Origin: Streptomyces sp. CB02261
GTDB lineage: Bacteria > Actinomycetota > Actinomycetes > Streptomycetales > Streptomycetaceae
Assembly: GCF_001905665.1 (NCBI RefSeq)
Contig: NZ_LIVX01000013.1
Coordinates: forward strand, 62,001 to 126,000
DNA: 64,000 bases
Direction: 5' to 3'
The translations under genes and the position numbers were made by a program. The number at the start of each line of letters is the position of its first letter. Positions within the stretch are counted from its first letter, which is position 1. The notes beneath the pieces are model-generated. The model had not been told where the DNA came from, searched no databases, and worked only from the letters and a program-made list of their open reading frames with translations. Below are positions 3,662 through 58,971 of the stretch, piece after piece.

Positions 3662-5074
3662 TCAGCCGCGCCGGGACCGTACGAGACTCCGGCCGAAGCG
3701 GAACGCCGCGCCGGCCTGCGGCGGGGCCACCGTTCCGCCCGGAAGGCCGAGCTGTGTCAGTCGTTCGGTGGAGAAGTGGTGCGCGACGCCGGGATCGGCG
3801 TGGTGCGCGGCCAGGAAGCCCGTGGCCTCCTCCCGCATCCCCGGGTGGCTCTTGTGCCGCATGCAGTAGCCGACGGCGCGGACGAGGGGCGTGAGCGAGT
3901 CCGGCGCGGGACCGGGGACCGCGGGCTCCTCGCCCACCTCCAGGTCCGCGACCAGGTGGTCGACGACCGTCAGCGGGATGCGGTTGCTGTTCTCGAACGG
4001 GGTGAGCCGTTCCAGGACCTCGGCCGTGCCCACGCGCGCGATGGGGACCCCGTAGTAGACGGCGGCGGTGAACAGGGCCGTGGAGAAGCAGCCGACGACG
4101 AGCCGGAGTGCGCACCGCTCGTAGAAGGTCTCGGCCAGCAGCGGCCCGTCGAGGACGGTGAGCCGCACGCCGGACCGTTCCGCCTCCTCGTGGAGCGCCT
4201 GCGAGTAGCCGGCGGGCGCGCTCGGGTGCGGCTTGAAGACGACCGAGCGGTGCCCGGCCGCGACCGCCCCGCGCAGCATCCGCACATGGAGCTCCTCTTC
4301 CTCCTCCGTGGTCAGGAGGGAGAGGGCCGCGAGGTACTGGCCGAGCAGGAGCGCCGTGGGCCCGGCCGCCGCCGCGCGGGTGATGTCCGGATCGCCGGCC
4401 GCCGCCTCGGCGATCTCGGCGAGGACCGCGCGGAAGGCGTCGTCCGGGACGAGTTCGGGCTCGACGCCGTACTCGCTCAGGAGGAGGGGCCGCAGGCCGG
4501 GCACGAGGTCGAGGTGGAGGACCCGCCGGATGCGGCAGGCGAGGGACTGCGCGAGGTCGTTACGGGTCGGCCCGTAGCTCATGAGGCCGTCCGCGTAGAC
4601 GTGGAGCGCGCTCTCGGGGAACGTGCCGGCCAGCGCCTTCGCGGGGTTGACCTGGATGGATTCCACGATCAGCTCGACCGGGACGCTCCCCAGGTCCCAC
4701 GCCGTGCGCAGCACACGCTGCCAGAGCGGCGCCTCCTCGGGGCGAGGGGCCCAGGCGGCGGGGTGGTACGGGTGGATCGTCTCGTTCCAGTCGAGGGTCC
4801 CGTCGAAGCGGGCGGCGATCCGCTCGTACCCGGTCATGGTCTCCAGGCGCAGCGCCGTCTCCGGGATCTCGGCGTTGCGCGAGATCAGCAGGAGTCGGCG
4901 GGCGTCCTCGCGGGGCCCGAACTGACCGGCGTCCAGGGAGGCGGCGAGGGTGGCGGCGCCGTACAGGGTGGAGACCTGGAAGATCTGCACCGGCCGGGTG
5001 TCGGTGACCGGGGCGGCGGGGCGGGCCCGGTCGGCGGCGGCCGTGGCCTCGGCGGGGGCCTTGTCGGGGGCCAT
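3662..5074 (-). CDS. Polysialyltransferase-family protein (PF07388-like)
   Basis: 470-residue predicted glycosyltransferase of the alpha-2,8-polysialyltransferase family. The N-terminal 28 residues are Ala/Pro/Asp-rich. The first folded domain starts at VQIFQVSTLYGAATLAA. The three short signatures of bacterial sialyltransferases are recognisable: an acidic-x-Gly motif in VYADGLMSYG (residues 159-168), a His-Pro motif in FKPHPSAP (283-284), and a Ser/Thr pair in GCFSTALF further on. There is no signal peptide or membrane segment, so it probably works at the inner face of the membrane on a lipid-linked or nucleotide-activated sugar. It lies 3 bases behind the glycosyltransferase gene, so the two are surely co-translated. 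Neither the sugar nor the polymer can be told from sequence. Kdn/sialic-like wall polymers are known in some streptomycetes, but no nonulosonate synthesis genes are in this window. Confidence 0.8.
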   Translation of the reverse strand: MAPDKAPAEATAAADRARPAAPVTDTRPVQIFQVSTLYGAATLAASLDAGQFGPREDARRLLLISRNAEIPETALRLETMTGYERIAARFDGTLDWNETIHPYHPAAWAPRPEEAPLWQRVLRTAWDLGSVPVELIVESIQVNPAKALAGTFPESALHVYADGLMSYGPTRNDLAQSLACRIRRVLHLDLVPGLRPLLLSEYGVEPELVPDDAFRAVLAEIAEAAAGDPDITRAAAAGPTALLLGQYLAALSLLTTEEEEELHVRMLRGAVAAGHRSVVFKPHPSAPAGYSQALHEEAERSGVRLTVLDGPLLAETFYERCALRLVVGCFSTALFTAAVYYGVPIARVGTAEVLERLTPFENSNRIPLTVVDHLVADLEVGEEPAVPGPAPDSLTPLVRAVGYCMRHKSHPGMREEATGFLAAHHADPGVAHHFSTERLTQLGLPGGTVAPPQAGAAFRFGRSLVRSRRG

Positions 5075-5077
5075 GGG

Positions 5078-6043
5078 TCAGGCGGTCCTTCCGGTGTCGC
5101 GCAGGCTCCGGAGGAGGGTGCTGCGGGGGGTGTCCATGGTGGCCAGGGTCTCGTCGAGGACGTGCTGCGGCATCCGGTGCAGCGCGTCGGCCACGTCGGC
5201 GCGGAGCCGCTCGGCGACGGCGGGGTCGTACTTGCCGACCTTGCCCATGTGGAAGGCGATCATCGCGCAATAGGTGCGGACCGCCTTCGGCAGGAAACGG
5301 TCCGCCTCCTCGTCCTTGGAGACGTCGTCGAGCAGGAGGTCGTACGAAGGAATGAAGTCCAGCTGCCGGTTGTCGGTGATCTGCGTGAGCGAGGTGGTGA
5401 CGCCTCGCCGGTAGAAGACCCCGTGCAGGGAAAGCGCCGCGAAGGTACGGGCCTTGAGGTGCAGTCGCCAGATCCAGAGCCGGTCCTCGGCTGTTCTCAG
5501 GGAGGTCTCGAAACGTGAGGCGCCGTTCTCGAAAAGCCGTGCGCTGTAGATTCCGAAGGGGACGAACGGATAGTCCACCATCGTGACCATACTGGCGGGC
5601 GAGATGCCGTCCCTGGGATCCATCAGCGTGTCGCGGCGCTTGGCGGGGGCATAACGGATCTGCCTTTTGCGGCCTTCCGAGAGGACGTGGTCGGTCCGCG
5701 CGAAATCGCAGCCCAGACGGTCCATCCCGGCCACCGTGGCGGCGAGGTGGCCCGGTGCGTACCAGTCGTCTCCGTCGAGGAAGGTGAGGTGGTCGCCGCG
5801 CGCGGCGTCGATTCCCGTGTTGCGCGCCTGGGCGACGCCGAGATTCGTCTCGTGCCGAATGACGGTGGCGTTCGGCAGGCGGTCGCGCCAGCGGTCGAGG
5901 ATTTCCGGGGTGTCGTCCGTCGAACAGTCGTCGATCAGCAGGAACTCGAATTCCGGATCCGCGTTGTTCGCGAGACTGCGCAGGGTGTCGGGGGCGTATG
6001 CCCCGACATTGTGGAACGGTACGACGACGGACAGTTTCGGCAC
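5078..6043 (-). CDS. Family 2 glycosyltransferase
   Basis: 321-residue GT2 (GT-A fold) enzyme. It begins with the first Rossmann strand PKLSVVVPFHNVGAYAPDTLR, then LLIDDCSTDDTPEIL for nucleotide-sugar binding. The metal-binding DXD-type motif is in HLTFLDGDDWYAPG and the acceptor region in DRLWIWRLHLK. The C-terminus (ending RTA) has no membrane anchor. I chose GTG 6043 rather than the upstream in-frame codon at 6070: GGGGA lies 6-7 bases before it, and the fold starts at the next residue. It leads a two-gene unit with the polysialyltransferase-like gene. A GTTCACC-type direct repeat lies about 80 bases upstream. Donor and acceptor are unknown. Confidence 0.88.
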   Translation of the reverse strand: MPKLSVVVPFHNVGAYAPDTLRSLANNADPEFEFLLIDDCSTDDTPEILDRWRDRLPNATVIRHETNLGVAQARNTGIDAARGDHLTFLDGDDWYAPGHLAATVAGMDRLGCDFARTDHVLSEGRKRQIRYAPAKRRDTLMDPRDGISPASMVTMVDYPFVPFGIYSARLFENGASRFETSLRTAEDRLWIWRLHLKARTFAALSLHGVFYRRGVTTSLTQITDNRQLDFIPSYDLLLDDVSKDEEADRFLPKAVRTYCAMIAFHMGKVGKYDPAVAERLRADVADALHRMPQHVLDETLATMDTPRSTLLRSLRDTGRTA

Positions 6044-6124
6044 GCGGAATCCCCATACTGGATCGAACAATTAAACGCCGCTACGGCGGGCACAGTAACG
6101 TCCCGTTTCTCCGGGCGAACGATC

Positions 6125-6146
6125 CGAGCGTGCACTCCGGGTGAAC
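6125..6146 (-). promoter_or_regulatory. Putative PHO-box-like direct repeat upstream of GT2
   Basis: Read on the minus strand: GTTCACCCGGA followed directly by GTGCACGCTCG, two 11-mers in tandem. Streptomyces PhoP binds 11-nt direct-repeat units of the type GTTCACC. The first unit fits well, the second only partly. The preceding bases give GAGTTCACCCG, identical to the element upstream of the YfhO gene at 8857-8878. Confidence 0.4.
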
Positions 6147-6211
6147 TCTTGTCGTCCCCCGTGGAAAGTCCGTGCGGAGACGGCCGCTTGTGAGGCGCCG
6201 AAGGTCCCCGG

Positions 6212-8839
6212 TCACCGGCGGGCCCGCCGCCGGTGCAGGACTCCCGTCACCACCAGGGCGAGGAGCGCGGCCGCTCCGGCGGCGCCGCCGAGGCGGAGCC
6301 CCGGAGGCCGGAAGGAGCAGGTGACCGTGGTCGCCCGGCCGTCGAGCGGCACGGCGACAAGGCCCTCGTACGCGCGCGCGGGCCGGAGCTCCGCGTCACC
6401 GGCGGAGCACCGCCAGCCGGAGATGCGGGGGACCGCGAGGACGGCGGTGCCCGTGCTGCCGGGGGGCAGTTCGGCCGTGACCGTGTGGCCGCTCGCGCGT
6501 ACCCGCGAGGCGCCGGTGGCGGTCAACTGCCGTACGGCGTCGTCGAGCCGGGCTCGGAGCAGACAGCCCACCGGCCGGCCGGGCAGCCGCAGCTTCGCCT
6601 CGGGGCTCAGCTCGATCCGTACCTCACCGGACGCGGGCACGGTGCCGAGGGCCCGCATGGGGGCGCGGACGGCGGGCGGTTTGCCCTCGAAGTCCACGGG
6701 GCGCTCCCCCGCGAGGGTCGCCGCGCCCCGGTACTCGGGCGCCCAGAACCAGACCTGGGAGCCCGCCGGGCAGCGGGCGGTGAGGGTGCGTCCGGTACGG
6801 GCGGGGGCGGGCAGTTCGTACACCTCGGCGCCGAGCAGGCGCTCCTGCCGCGCGAAGGCCGAGTCCCCGGGGTGGGTGGCCGGGCGTCCCGGCGGACGGA
6901 CGGTGACCAGCGGCGGCACGGGGGTGGTCGTGACGGAGACCCAGGCGCGGGGCGCCGCGTCCTGCCGTACCCGTTCCGTGGGCCGCGAACGGATCCGGGT
7001 GCCGATGGAGAACAGGGCGTCGGTCACCGGGTTGTCGAGCGTGACCGGGTGCCGGCCCTTGGCGTAGTAGCCGAACCCCAGGGACGCGAGGGTGCGGGAG
7101 GTCACCTCGGCGGTGAGGCTGCTGTAGTAGTCGGGTCCCTGACCGCCGACGAGGAGTACGTCGTTGCCGCCGGGGACCTCTCCGGGGTCCGTACGGTGGC
7201 GGGGCCAGGCGTCGGCCCGGGCCACCTCCTCGGCGACGGACGTGTGCCAGGGGCCCAGCCGGGGGGACCAGGAGACCTCGCTCCGCTGCTGCTCCTCGAT
7301 CCGCATCCCCGTGACGGCCGCCTCACCGGCCTGCGCGACGACGAACAGGACCAGGGCCAGGACGGGCAGGACGCGCGCGGTGGTCCGGCGGGCGTGCGGC
7401 CGTGCGAGGAGCACGGCGGCGAGGGCGAGGACCGCGGCCGCGCCGGATGCGGGGTAGGTCCACCGGTCGATGTCGACGCTCCCCCGGGCCGCCCAGGCGA
7501 GCAGCCCGAGCAGGGCACCGCCGCCGAGGAGCGCGGCCGGCCGCGGGACGCCCCGGGCAGCCGAGAACCAGGCGGCGATCAGCAGCAGCCCGCACAGGAC
7601 GAAGGTCTGACGGTACGGAATGCCGTTGGGCGAGGCCCCGGCGTGCCAGAGGAGATGGGTCGGCTCCCACTGGAGGGAGAGCGTCACGAGGACGATCGCG
7701 GCCGCCCAGCCGGCACGCACGCGCGTGGCGACGGCCCGGTTGAACGGCAGGGTGAGGGCGAGCGCCAGCGCGGGCGTTCCGATGAAGAGGGCGGGGCTGG
7801 CCACACTGGCGGTGGCGGGCAGGAACCGGGCGAGGACGTCCGTCCAGGCGGCGGCCGCGAACGTGGTCTCCGGGGTGGGGTCGGCGACCTTGGTGCCGAG
7901 GAAGACGACCACGACGAGCGGGGCGGCGAGCCCGACGCCGATGAGGACGCCCCGCGCGGCGCGGAACAGCCCGGCGAGGCGAAGGCGGGCGGAGGCCGTC
8001 TCGTCGGCGGTGAGGAGGCGTACGACGAGGACGACGGCGGCCCCGAGGGTGGCCATGTACGCCGTGTAGAAGTTGGCGATCCAGGCCAGGGCGACGACGA
8101 GGGGCCCGAGGACGGGGCGGCGCCCGGTGCGGGCCCACTCCCCGACCAGGCAGAGCAGCGGGAAGGCGACGAGTCCGTCGAGCCACATCGGGACGGACGC
8201 GCCGAAGTTGAAGGTCCAGCCGGAGAGCGCGTACGCGGTGCCGAGCACGGCGGCGACCGGCCAGGGTCCGGGGCGCAGCCGCAGGAGCAGCAGCGCCATC
8301 GCGGCCCCGGCCGCCGTGATCTTGACCGCGGTGACCACGTACAGGGCGAGTTCGATGCGGTCGGCGGGGAAGAGCACGACGAGCAGGTCGAAGGGGCTGC
8401 TCAGATAGGTGCCGATGTCCCCGAGGAAGTTGGAGCCGAAACCGGAGTTCCAGTTGAGGAAGGCGTCCCCGTGCGTCTCGCCGTGGAGGAGGGCGCGCCA
8501 GTAGGCGTGGAACGGCAGGTACTGCTGGCCGAGGTCGACGATGTTCCTGGTCACCGGCCCGAAGGGGTGGCTGCGGGAGAGCCGGGTCGCGAGGCAGAGC
8601 AGCACGGCGGTGAGCAGGGCGGCGGAGAGCGGCCCGGCGACGGCCGGGGCGCGCAGCCCCCGTGCGGGGGCGCCGGCCCTGAGCGGGGGCGCGCCCTTCC
8701 CCTCCTCGCCGTCGACCTCGTCGAGCACGGTGTCGGCGGCGGGGGGCACACGTCCTCCAGGGGGCGCACGGAACGGGGAACGCCCGGGGTGAGGTGTCAC
8801 GGGCCGACCGCCATTACCGCCGAGTCGGGCGACCCGCAA
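6212..8839 (-). CDS. YfhO-family multispanning membrane protein
   Basis: 875-residue (longest reading) integral membrane protein of the YfhO / GT-C-like group. In Gram-positive bacteria this group helps glycosylate cell-wall polymers such as lipoteichoic acid. A disordered Pro/Gly-rich N-terminus of 50 or so residues precedes about a dozen hydrophobic helices (roughly 55-490). The first outer loop carries the family block NIVDLGQQYLPFHAYWRALLHG and the NWNSGFGSNFLGD motif. The C-terminal third (about 500-840) is a soluble extracytoplasmic domain, closed by one more helix and a basic RRRARR tail. The start is uncertain. In-frame GTG codons at 8800 and 8749 (the latter after GGAGG) are alternatives, and they would leave room for the regulatory element at 8857-8878. 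It is the first gene of the envelope island and lies 168 bases before the glycosyltransferase. Confidence 0.85.
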   Translation of the reverse strand: MRVARLGGNGGRPVTPHPGRSPFRAPPGGRVPPAADTVLDEVDGEEGKGAPPLRAGAPARGLRAPAVAGPLSAALLTAVLLCLATRLSRSHPFGPVTRNIVDLGQQYLPFHAYWRALLHGETHGDAFLNWNSGFGSNFLGDIGTYLSSPFDLLVVLFPADRIELALYVVTAVKITAAGAAMALLLLRLRPGPWPVAAVLGTAYALSGWTFNFGASVPMWLDGLVAFPLLCLVGEWARTGRRPVLGPLVVALAWIANFYTAYMATLGAAVVLVVRLLTADETASARLRLAGLFRAARGVLIGVGLAAPLVVVVFLGTKVADPTPETTFAAAAWTDVLARFLPATASVASPALFIGTPALALALTLPFNRAVATRVRAGWAAAIVLVTLSLQWEPTHLLWHAGASPNGIPYRQTFVLCGLLLIAAWFSAARGVPRPAALLGGGALLGLLAWAARGSVDIDRWTYPASGAAAVLALAAVLLARPHARRTTARVLPVLALVLFVVAQAGEAAVTGMRIEEQQRSEVSWSPRLGPWHTSVAEEVARADAWPRHRTDPGEVPGGNDVLLVGGQGPDYYSSLTAEVTSRTLASLGFGYYAKGRHPVTLDNPVTDALFSIGTRIRSRPTERVRQDAAPRAWVSVTTTPVPPLVTVRPPGRPATHPGDSAFARQERLLGAEVYELPAPARTGRTLTARCPAGSQVWFWAPEYRGAATLAGERPVDFEGKPPAVRAPMRALGTVPASGEVRIELSPEAKLRLPGRPVGCLLRARLDDAVRQLTATGASRVRASGHTVTAELPPGSTGTAVLAVPRISGWRCSAGDAELRPARAYEGLVAVPLDGRATTVTCSFRPPGLRLGGAAGAAALLALVVTGVLHRRRARR

Positions 8840-8856
8840 CCGATCACCAGGCGGTC

Positions 8857-8878
8857 TTCCGGTACACCTCGGGTGAAC
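8857..8878 (-). promoter_or_regulatory. Putative PHO-box-like direct repeat upstream of YfhO gene
   Basis: On the minus strand: GTTCACCCGAG then GTGTACCGGAA, two adjacent 11-mers. Together with the preceding GA it shares GAGTTCACCCG exactly with the site upstream of the GT2 gene. Its closeness to codon 8839 argues that translation starts further downstream (8800 or 8749). Confidence 0.4.
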
Positions 8879-8923
8879 TCCCGGTGCGGGTCGGCCGGAG
8901 GCCGTGGGGGCCGGCGTGCCGGG

Positions 8924-37513: not shown

Positions 37514-37590
37514 GAAGCCTCCTGACTCTCCGGTGATGTCGGTTCACCCAGAGTCCAGCACGCGCGCCCGGCGTGCACCCCAACACAGCC

Positions 37591-49411: not shown

Positions 49412-49639
49412 GACAGGAGGGGGAACGGGGAGTGAACAATGGGCAACTGGGCAGGGATATGAGTGGCATACCAACTCATTCCCGTCAGCTGCCTCAATTG
49501 CTCGTTGCCGCTCGCGCACGGGCCAGCAAGAATTGGGAAACCGCCTCGCACGGCCCGTCAGCGGTCCGGAAGGACTGTGCCGTGGTGCGCACTCACCCGA
49601 CCTTGCCCGCCTCGCGGGCGCGTATCCGAAGGGAGGACC

Positions 49640-58440: not shown

Positions 58441-58971
58441 ATGAGCGGACTCAACAAGGGAGTGGGCAAGGTCGAGGTGACGCTCCGGTGGGACCCCGCC
58501 CCGACCGGTGCGCCAGCCCACGACCTGGACATCGTCGCCGGCGTCTTCGCGGCGGACGACCCGCACGGAGCGCCCGTCCACCTGGTGCACTTCGGCAGTC
58601 GCTCCCCCGACGGCACGATCACGCTCCACCGGGACAGCCGTACGGGCCAGGGGTTCGGCTACGACGAGGCCATGACCCTGGAACTGGAGAGGCTGGCGCC
58701 GCGGTACGCGCGCGTGGTGGTGGGCGTCGCCATACAGCAGGGCGGTGGGCGGCTGGCCTTCGGCGACATAGCGAACACGGGCGTACGGGTCCGCGAGGGC
58801 TACACGGACCTGTTGGTCCACGATTTCGCGGACGTGCCGGACGCCCTGTCGGCGACGGTCGTGGAGTTCACCCGCGACGGCACCGAGGGCTGGACGTACC
58901 GCCCGCTCAGCCAGGGCTTCGACGCCGATCCTCAGGACTTCGCCCGGCTGCTGGGCTCCGCGCGCCCCTGA
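58441..58971 (+). CDS. TerD family stress protein
   Basis: 176-residue TerD-type protein. It has strands LNKGVGKVEVTLRWDPAP and DLDIVAGVFAADDPHG, a calcium-site-like segment DSRTGQGFGYDEAMTLELERL (shorter in acidic residues than the classical GEGEGDDE form), and VGVAIQQ. Tellurite-resistance family members bind calcium and act in envelope stress or phage defence. This lone copy has no ter neighbours. ATG 58441 follows GGGGAAG. It ends at a strong hairpin before convergent nrdJ. Confidence 0.9.
   Translation: MSGLNKGVGKVEVTLRWDPAPTGAPAHDLDIVAGVFAADDPHGAPVHLVHFGSRSPDGTITLHRDSRTGQGFGYDEAMTLELERLAPRYARVVVGVAIQQGGGRLAFGDIANTGVRVREGYTDLLVHDFADVPDALSATVVEFTRDGTEGWTYRPLSQGFDADPQDFARLLGSARP

Follow-up and report, generated by a model that had tools for sequence, protein, structure and literature searches.

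A putative PhoP-controlled satellite of the teichulosonic-acid system next to sepH in Streptomyces

The closest described counterpart of the locus analysed here is SCO4873-4882 of Streptomyces coelicolor, which has been described as making phosphate-free teichulosonic acid under the control of PhoP (PMC13011467, PMC8003754, PMC2267785, PMC2824715). The polymer is reported to consist of Gal and Kdn and frequently to bear GlcNAc or methyl groups (PMC11481543), a composition that suggests one transferase of each kind. Regulatory studies list SCO4877 (hypothetical), SCO4878 (GT2), SCO4879 (hypothetical) and SCO4880 (sialic acid synthase) as PhoP-activated (PMC8269224) and PhoP-SCO4878 as a curated strong interaction (PMC8857197); in one phosphate depletion series, SCO4876-4882 were reported as induced with the exception of SCO4877 (PMC2824715). 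Streptomyces PhoP sites are reported to be built of 11-nt direct repeats that share a conserved GTTCACC, and binding reportedly requires two such units (PMC6283541, PMC6988585). A second relevant system comes from Firmicutes, where YfhO proteins are reported to take sugars, in many cases GlcNAc, from a C55-P carrier and attach them to wall polymers (PMC8035078).

The window, by which we mean the whole 64,000-nt stretch of Streptomyces DNA that was analysed, contains three neighbouring genes on its minus strand, identified by Pfam profile search as a polysialyltransferase-family gene (polyST), a GT2 gene and a YfhO gene, in agreement with a preliminary description of this DNA. The features of this island are as follows:

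3662-5074, minus strand: polysialyltransferase-family gene (polyST), PF07388 (Pfam E 2.5e-28), 470 aa
5078-6043, minus strand: GT2 gene, soluble, PF00535 (E 2e-33)
6092-6097, minus strand: -10-like TACTGT of the putative GT2 promoter (TTA conserved in the 35-locus alignment)
6125-6146, minus strand: PHO-box-like tandem GTTCACCCGGA-GTGCACGCTCG before GT2 (motif scan and comparison)
6212-8749, minus strand: YfhO-family GT-C membrane glycosyltransferase, PF09586 (E 6.6e-68)
8811-8816, minus strand: -10-like TAATGG of the putative YfhO promoter (conserved in 32 loci)
8824-8878, minus strand: putative operator before YfhO (core invariant in 32 loci)
8878-8868, minus strand: YfhO operator unit 1, GTTCACCCGAG, a GTTCACC-type unit
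8867-8857, minus strand: YfhO operator unit 2, GTGTACCGGAA, 11 nt on from unit 1

The GT2 gene probably starts at the GTG at 6043, which was chosen from conservation (the listed frame begins with TTG at 6070), and its gap to polyST is 3 bases, so the two are probably transcribed together. The YfhO gene likely starts at the GTG at 8749, which follows GGAGG; the TTG that opens the listed frame, at 8839, lies on the upstream side of the -10-like site.

The 11-mer GAGTTCACCCG occurs exactly at 6138-6148 and 8870-8880 on the minus strand, the places given in the preliminary description, upstream of GT2 and YfhO, respectively, and each copy opens a tandem of 11-nt units of the form GTTCACC-N4-GTG. 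The repeat core GTTCACC starts two bases inside the 11-mer, and the weaker unit beginning GTG, also noted in the preliminary description, lies 11 nt after the core start. Before YfhO, three weaker units follow the second in the 11-nt register, reaching 8824; the GT2 promoter has an additional GTTCGCC off register at 6120-6114 (minus strand). With at most one mismatch, GAGTTCACCCG has 10 sites in the window, compared with 1.77 ± 1.34 in shuffled sequences, none of 100 of which reached 10. Since a third exact copy (58864-58874) is located within listed open frames, the 11-mer alone is not diagnostic. PHO-box-like sites were scored by counting mismatches against the published core GTTCACC. Scanning the 7.7 Mb of the strain's own genome (18 contigs) for GTTCACC-N4-GTTCACC with up to 2 mismatches returned 82 sites, and the reversed pattern returned 9. 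Both island tandems are among the 82, each with an exact first unit and 2 mismatches to the 7-base core in the second, and 10 sites in the genome are better (0 or 1 mismatch). A perfect tandem precedes a PstS-like gene (PF12849) by 84 nt and a 1-mismatch tandem precedes a PHO4 permease gene (PF01384) by 69 nt, which indicates that the consensus does pick out phosphate genes here. We rejected the interpretation of the entire excess of 82 over 9 as PhoP sites, because 19 of the 30 inspected sites are within GC3-rich open frames (stop to stop), including the pstS site, which precedes its start; codon usage may favour the motif. Perfect tandems were also observed 25 nt before a glutamate-synthase-like gene (PF00310; C1:247167-247184, L006) and 46 nt before an ArsR-family gene (C15:444536-444553, L008), both genes being divergent from the motif direction; the latter could connect phosphate control with arsenate handling. 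Further 2-mismatch tandem-like sites in the window are located at 37542-37559 (plus strand), between secreted-protease-like and RpoD/HrdB-like genes as read from the translations, and at 49420-49437 (minus strand).

Conservation of the elements was evaluated in the 200 nt upstream of each gene, on the same strand, in the window and 34 named island loci; the counts were confined to this set because some named and unnamed loci represent the same genomes. GTTCAYC was present before GT2 in 34 of 35 loci and GTTCACC in 32 of 35, the locus without GTTCAYC (L135) having ATTCATC. Before YfhO, GTTCACC was found in all 32 testable loci, a count that leaves out L126 (no YfhO match), L122 (contig starting inside YfhO) and L132 (match starting at residue 287). 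A tandem whose second unit agrees at 4 or more of 7 positions was found in 34/35 GT2 promoters and 26/32 YfhO promoters. In the same 200-nt interval, GTTCACC was absent before the neighbouring polyST, VOC and rhodanese genes (0/35 each), sepH (0/34), isochorismatase (0/20), tetR (0/19) and TK (0/16) genes, and GTTCAYC occurred only before tetR (2/19; 0 for the other six). As the loci come from related species, these counts measure conservation and are not independent trials. In the alignment of 32 YfhO promoters the seven core columns are invariant, compared with a mean column value of 0.746, and the -10 region is as well conserved as the PHO element (0.918 and 0.910). Mean agreement with GTTCACC downstream of unit 1 (out of 7) was 4.28 at +11, 3.59 at +22, 3.19 at +33 and 4.53 at +44, with high values also off register (3.84 at +19, 3.53 at +30, 3.62 at +45 and 3.38 at +48); the values in register look like those of a multi-unit operator, a reading tempered by the high off-register ones. 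For the GT2 promoter the values were 4.68 (+11) and 2.97 (+22), and the maximum, 5.15, was reached off register (+26). The GT2 column profile (core columns 0.77-0.80) spanned 140 nt and cut off elements located farther up, so the 200-nt counts were used for this promoter. In L126, which lacks YfhO, GT2 is directly preceded by a TK gene and retains its tandem. The resemblance to PhoP repeats that had been pointed out earlier thus holds for the 11-nt units, for their conservation upstream of orthologues, the lack of which the preliminary description had named as a refutation, for the occurrence of the consensus before PstS and PHO4 genes and for the core before most SCO4878 homologues (see below), and the island elements, which comprise at least two directly repeated 11-nt units with a GTTCACC core, are likely PHO boxes.

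We assign the predicted enzymes as follows. PF07388, which we take to be GT38 in CAZy, suggests that polyST is a nonulosonate (Kdn) transferase, the family by itself being no proof of a Kdn substrate. An AlphaFold2 model of polyST (pLDDT 88, pTM 0.85) was compared with 999 chains, and two bacterial polysialyltransferase entries came out on top (Z 18.1 and 17.8; rmsd 5.2 and 5.4 Å over 325 and 321 residues), three Z units above 2-epimerases and other GT-B enzymes; plain Foldseek placed a 2-epimerase first and a polysialyltransferase second. In an alignment of 27 sequences, YADG is invariant and KPHP nearly so, and motifs of this type are presumably catalytic in the polysialyltransferase group. 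The family profile and the modelled GT-B fold together argue for a bacterial polysialyltransferase. The only two sequence-profile matches of polyST in the PDB, both to CFAP115 over 34 positions, were taken as chance. The best solved relative of GT2 is GalT1 (5hea, E 3.5e-19). Hydropathy analysis indicated no membrane-like segment in GT2, and a CsbB-like donor synthase was rejected on this ground. YfhO has 10 membrane-like segments by hydropathy and, together with its profile match, belongs by sequence to the YfhO-family GT-C membrane proteins; its AlphaFold2 model (pLDDT 44.6) is too poor for judging the fold. The adjacent membrane GT-A that makes a lipid-linked sugar in YfhO systems has no counterpart next to YfhO in the island, the adjoining GT2 being the soluble protein described above.

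The genome has another PF07388 gene, on a different contig, which follows a GT2 gene and is divergent from genes for DUF6716, for a protein that fuses a cytidylyltransferase to a phosphatase, and for NeuB. Models of pseudaminate cytidylyltransferase and of Kdn-9-phosphatase match the fusion protein with scores short of their cut-offs, and this main nonulosonate cluster (contig C11) holds the sole NeuB of the genome. Its order fits SCO4877-SCO4880, assigned by order and annotation rather than by comparison with the S. coelicolor sequences; by gene order, SCO4877 would be polyST. The gene following neuB (L003:4406-5605, minus strand) has no Pfam or NCBIfam match at E 0.001, and a 64% identical homologue also follows neuB in L198. 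Within this genome the GT2 proteins of the window and the cluster are 59% identical and the polyST proteins 54-55%, and the window pair is, judged by sequence, a paralogue of the teichulosonic-acid cluster pair. Among 27 cluster-type GT2 promoters (SCO4878 homologues, some from the same genome or species), GTTCACC was found in 20, mostly 65 nt before the start; five of the other seven have variants at 65 and/or 87, and two have none. The island thus holds a GT2-polyST pair of the cluster family and lacks the nonulosonate synthase and activation genes of a teichulosonic-acid locus, and with the only NeuB at C11 it is a satellite and not a full locus. Earlier, the three genes had been regarded as a dedicated surface-polymer pathway; they do look like surface-glycan genes, and it is the word dedicated that the paralogy and the location of NeuB speak against. 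For the same reasons a self-contained new pathway was rejected. Nor does the suggestion of an undescribed phosphate-responsive polymer stand as a new class, as phosphate-free, PhoP-activated teichulosonic acid is already known (SCO4873-4882); it is weakened because the enzymes form an outlying part of that system. In the open-access literature searched we found no description of a satellite arrangement with YfhO.

Trees built from 160 polyST and 142 GT2 sequences, some of them duplicates from one genome, both separate the cluster pair from the window-like pair. The 42 island polyST sequences group in a single clade (support 0.885) whose sister is a set of 46 sequences (joint support 0.999) that include S. 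globisporus, S. anulatus, S. atratus and S. parvulus, and the 41 island GT2 sequences form one clade (0.932), sister to 37 that include S. griseus (joint support 1.0). The two trees disagree for some sequences: S. parvulus GT2 is outside the sister group, and S. griseus polyST was left out of the polyST tree. Among six named relatives that were mapped, three (L137, L141, L161) have the window-like pair flanked by a methylmalonyl-CoA mutase gene on one side and the cluster pair on the other, both pair types are within 8 kb in L180, and only the window-like pair is found within the available stretch in L167 and L168. Together, the trees and these flanks indicate that the island pair is a second type, here located away from the cluster. 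Second-type GT2 promoters elsewhere contain GTTCACC in 36/46 and GTTCAYC in 39/46, with a tandem (second unit at least 4/7) in only 8/46; L167 and L168 have perfect tandems.

A polyST search of 150 genomes of the genus, including the strain's own, gave matches in 141. Regions were examined from 40 of the 140 other matching genomes, the remaining 100 having best matches of at most 60% identity among the matches listed. Six of the 40 have the full order sepH-rhodanese-VOC-polyST-GT2-YfhO (L066-L071), and in G041 parts of the island are on two contigs (L090, L202), the polyST start not being found. A search of named genomes yielded 242 loci; in the best 80 of these 242, which were kept, the island is present in 34 (L106-L136, L142, L157, L166), its carriers including S. 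exfoliatus, S. zaomyceticus, S. gardneri and S. filamentosus. Three of these loci are incomplete: L126 is without YfhO, L123 stops before sepH and several genes are partial in L166. The island is also found in a record titled Microtetraspora glauca NRRL B-3735 (L125), which may be misnamed. YfhO matches were obtained in 47 of 121 genomes, the best outside the island being about 55% identical; most, including the genome's own other copy (L200), are away from polyST. The link of YfhO to the Kdn polymer is one of gene neighbourhood only, in the window, in G070 (YfhO directly after the cluster pair) and in G116 (YfhO about 3.5 kb beyond it), the latter two having been noticed from coordinate comparison and not from a systematic count. 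Four plasmid records contain YfhO matches, the best at 36.5% identity, which gives no hint of a mobile origin.

We favour the reading, with a probability of roughly 0.6, that the island is a PhoP-controlled satellite extending or decorating the teichulosonic-acid (Kdn) polymer. Upon phosphate exhaustion, PhoP would bind the tandem 11-nt units and activate two promoters, that of YfhO and that shared by GT2 and polyST. The latter two enzymes would act as a cytoplasmic hexose/Kdn transferase pair, supplied with CMP-nonulosonate by the main cluster on another contig, and would make or lengthen a second form of the phosphate-free polymer, to which the GT-C enzyme YfhO may add a side sugar from a lipid carrier at the outer face. 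The model rests on the gene families, on paralogy with a cluster that PhoP activates in S. coelicolor, on the conserved operators and on the presence of the sole NeuB in that cluster; PhoP binding, the donor and acceptor sugars and the action of YfhO on the same polymer are all inferred. Counting against this model are the SCO4877 exception, the two mismatches in the second units, the 8/46 tandems of the second type and the usual location of YfhO away from polyST.

That last observation also favours an alternative in which the island, still under PhoP, makes or modifies a non-Kdn product such as a teichuronic-acid-like chain on wall teichoic acid, an exopolysaccharide or glycoproteins. YfhO matches the Streptococcus protein-glycosylation enzymes PgfM1 and PgfM2 below cut-off, and variable teichuronic-acid-like chains on Streptomyces teichoic acid have been described (PMC13274773). 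We nevertheless consider such a product unlikely, since GT2-polyST is a paralogue of the pair in the nonulosonate cluster, and relatives carry the sister pair of GT2-polyST next to that cluster. The identity of the regulator could be questioned as well: AfsR and PhoP are reported to bind overlapping sequences at afsS, pstS, phoRP and glnR (PMC6988585), and the tandems might be used mainly by AfsR or another regulator with a similar site, so that the genes answer another signal. The PhoP activation of the homologous S. coelicolor cluster and the tandem consensus before phosphate genes in this genome are compatible with shared control, and together they make a mainly different regulator improbable. 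We give the least credence, and very little of it, to the idea that the island is a redundant copy of the cluster pair that is decaying and does little; the absence of YfhO in L126 and the split island of G041 would suit decay, but most of the 35 loci have retained the genes along with both operators, and the YfhO promoter core is invariant in 32.

If the satellite reading is correct, the low-phosphate wall switch of Streptomyces would be a modular system and not one cluster. As a more tentative extension, which we hold to be possible rather than probable, one Streptomyces group (S. exfoliatus, S. zaomyceticus, S. gardneri, S. filamentosus and others) might carry a second, starvation-specific nonulosonate wall polymer, made by a detached Kdn/hexose pair and a side-sugar GT-C enzyme under two PhoP operators of its own; a starved cell would then show a surface unlike that of a fed one, and phages or lectin toxins recognizing that surface might be affected. 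The GT2-polyST pair occurs in two types, and one species group has the second beside sepH, together with YfhO and conserved PhoP-type operators. The island opens to testing which enzymes make the Kdn polymer differ among species and whether the surface of starved hyphae is a different one, and it supplies many conserved operators for refinement of the PHO box.

Compared with SCO4873-SCO4882 (SLI_5146-SLI_5156 in S. lividans), the island shares a paralogous GT2-polyST pair, upstream GTTCACC cores and a predicted nonulosonate polymer; it differs in its position beside sepH, in having no NeuB, cytidylyltransferase or DUF6716 gene and in the addition of YfhO. The teichuronic acid of B. subtilis is built on a uronic and not a nonulosonic acid. 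Its operon resembles our model in that genes for a phosphate-free polymer are PhoP-induced (PMC4415409, PMC13274773), whereas the genes themselves are different. With the CsbB/GtcA/YfhO systems of Firmicutes the island has in common a YfhO-family GT-C enzyme beside glycosyltransferase genes, but its GT2 is not of the CsbB type, and both the polymer and the control differ.
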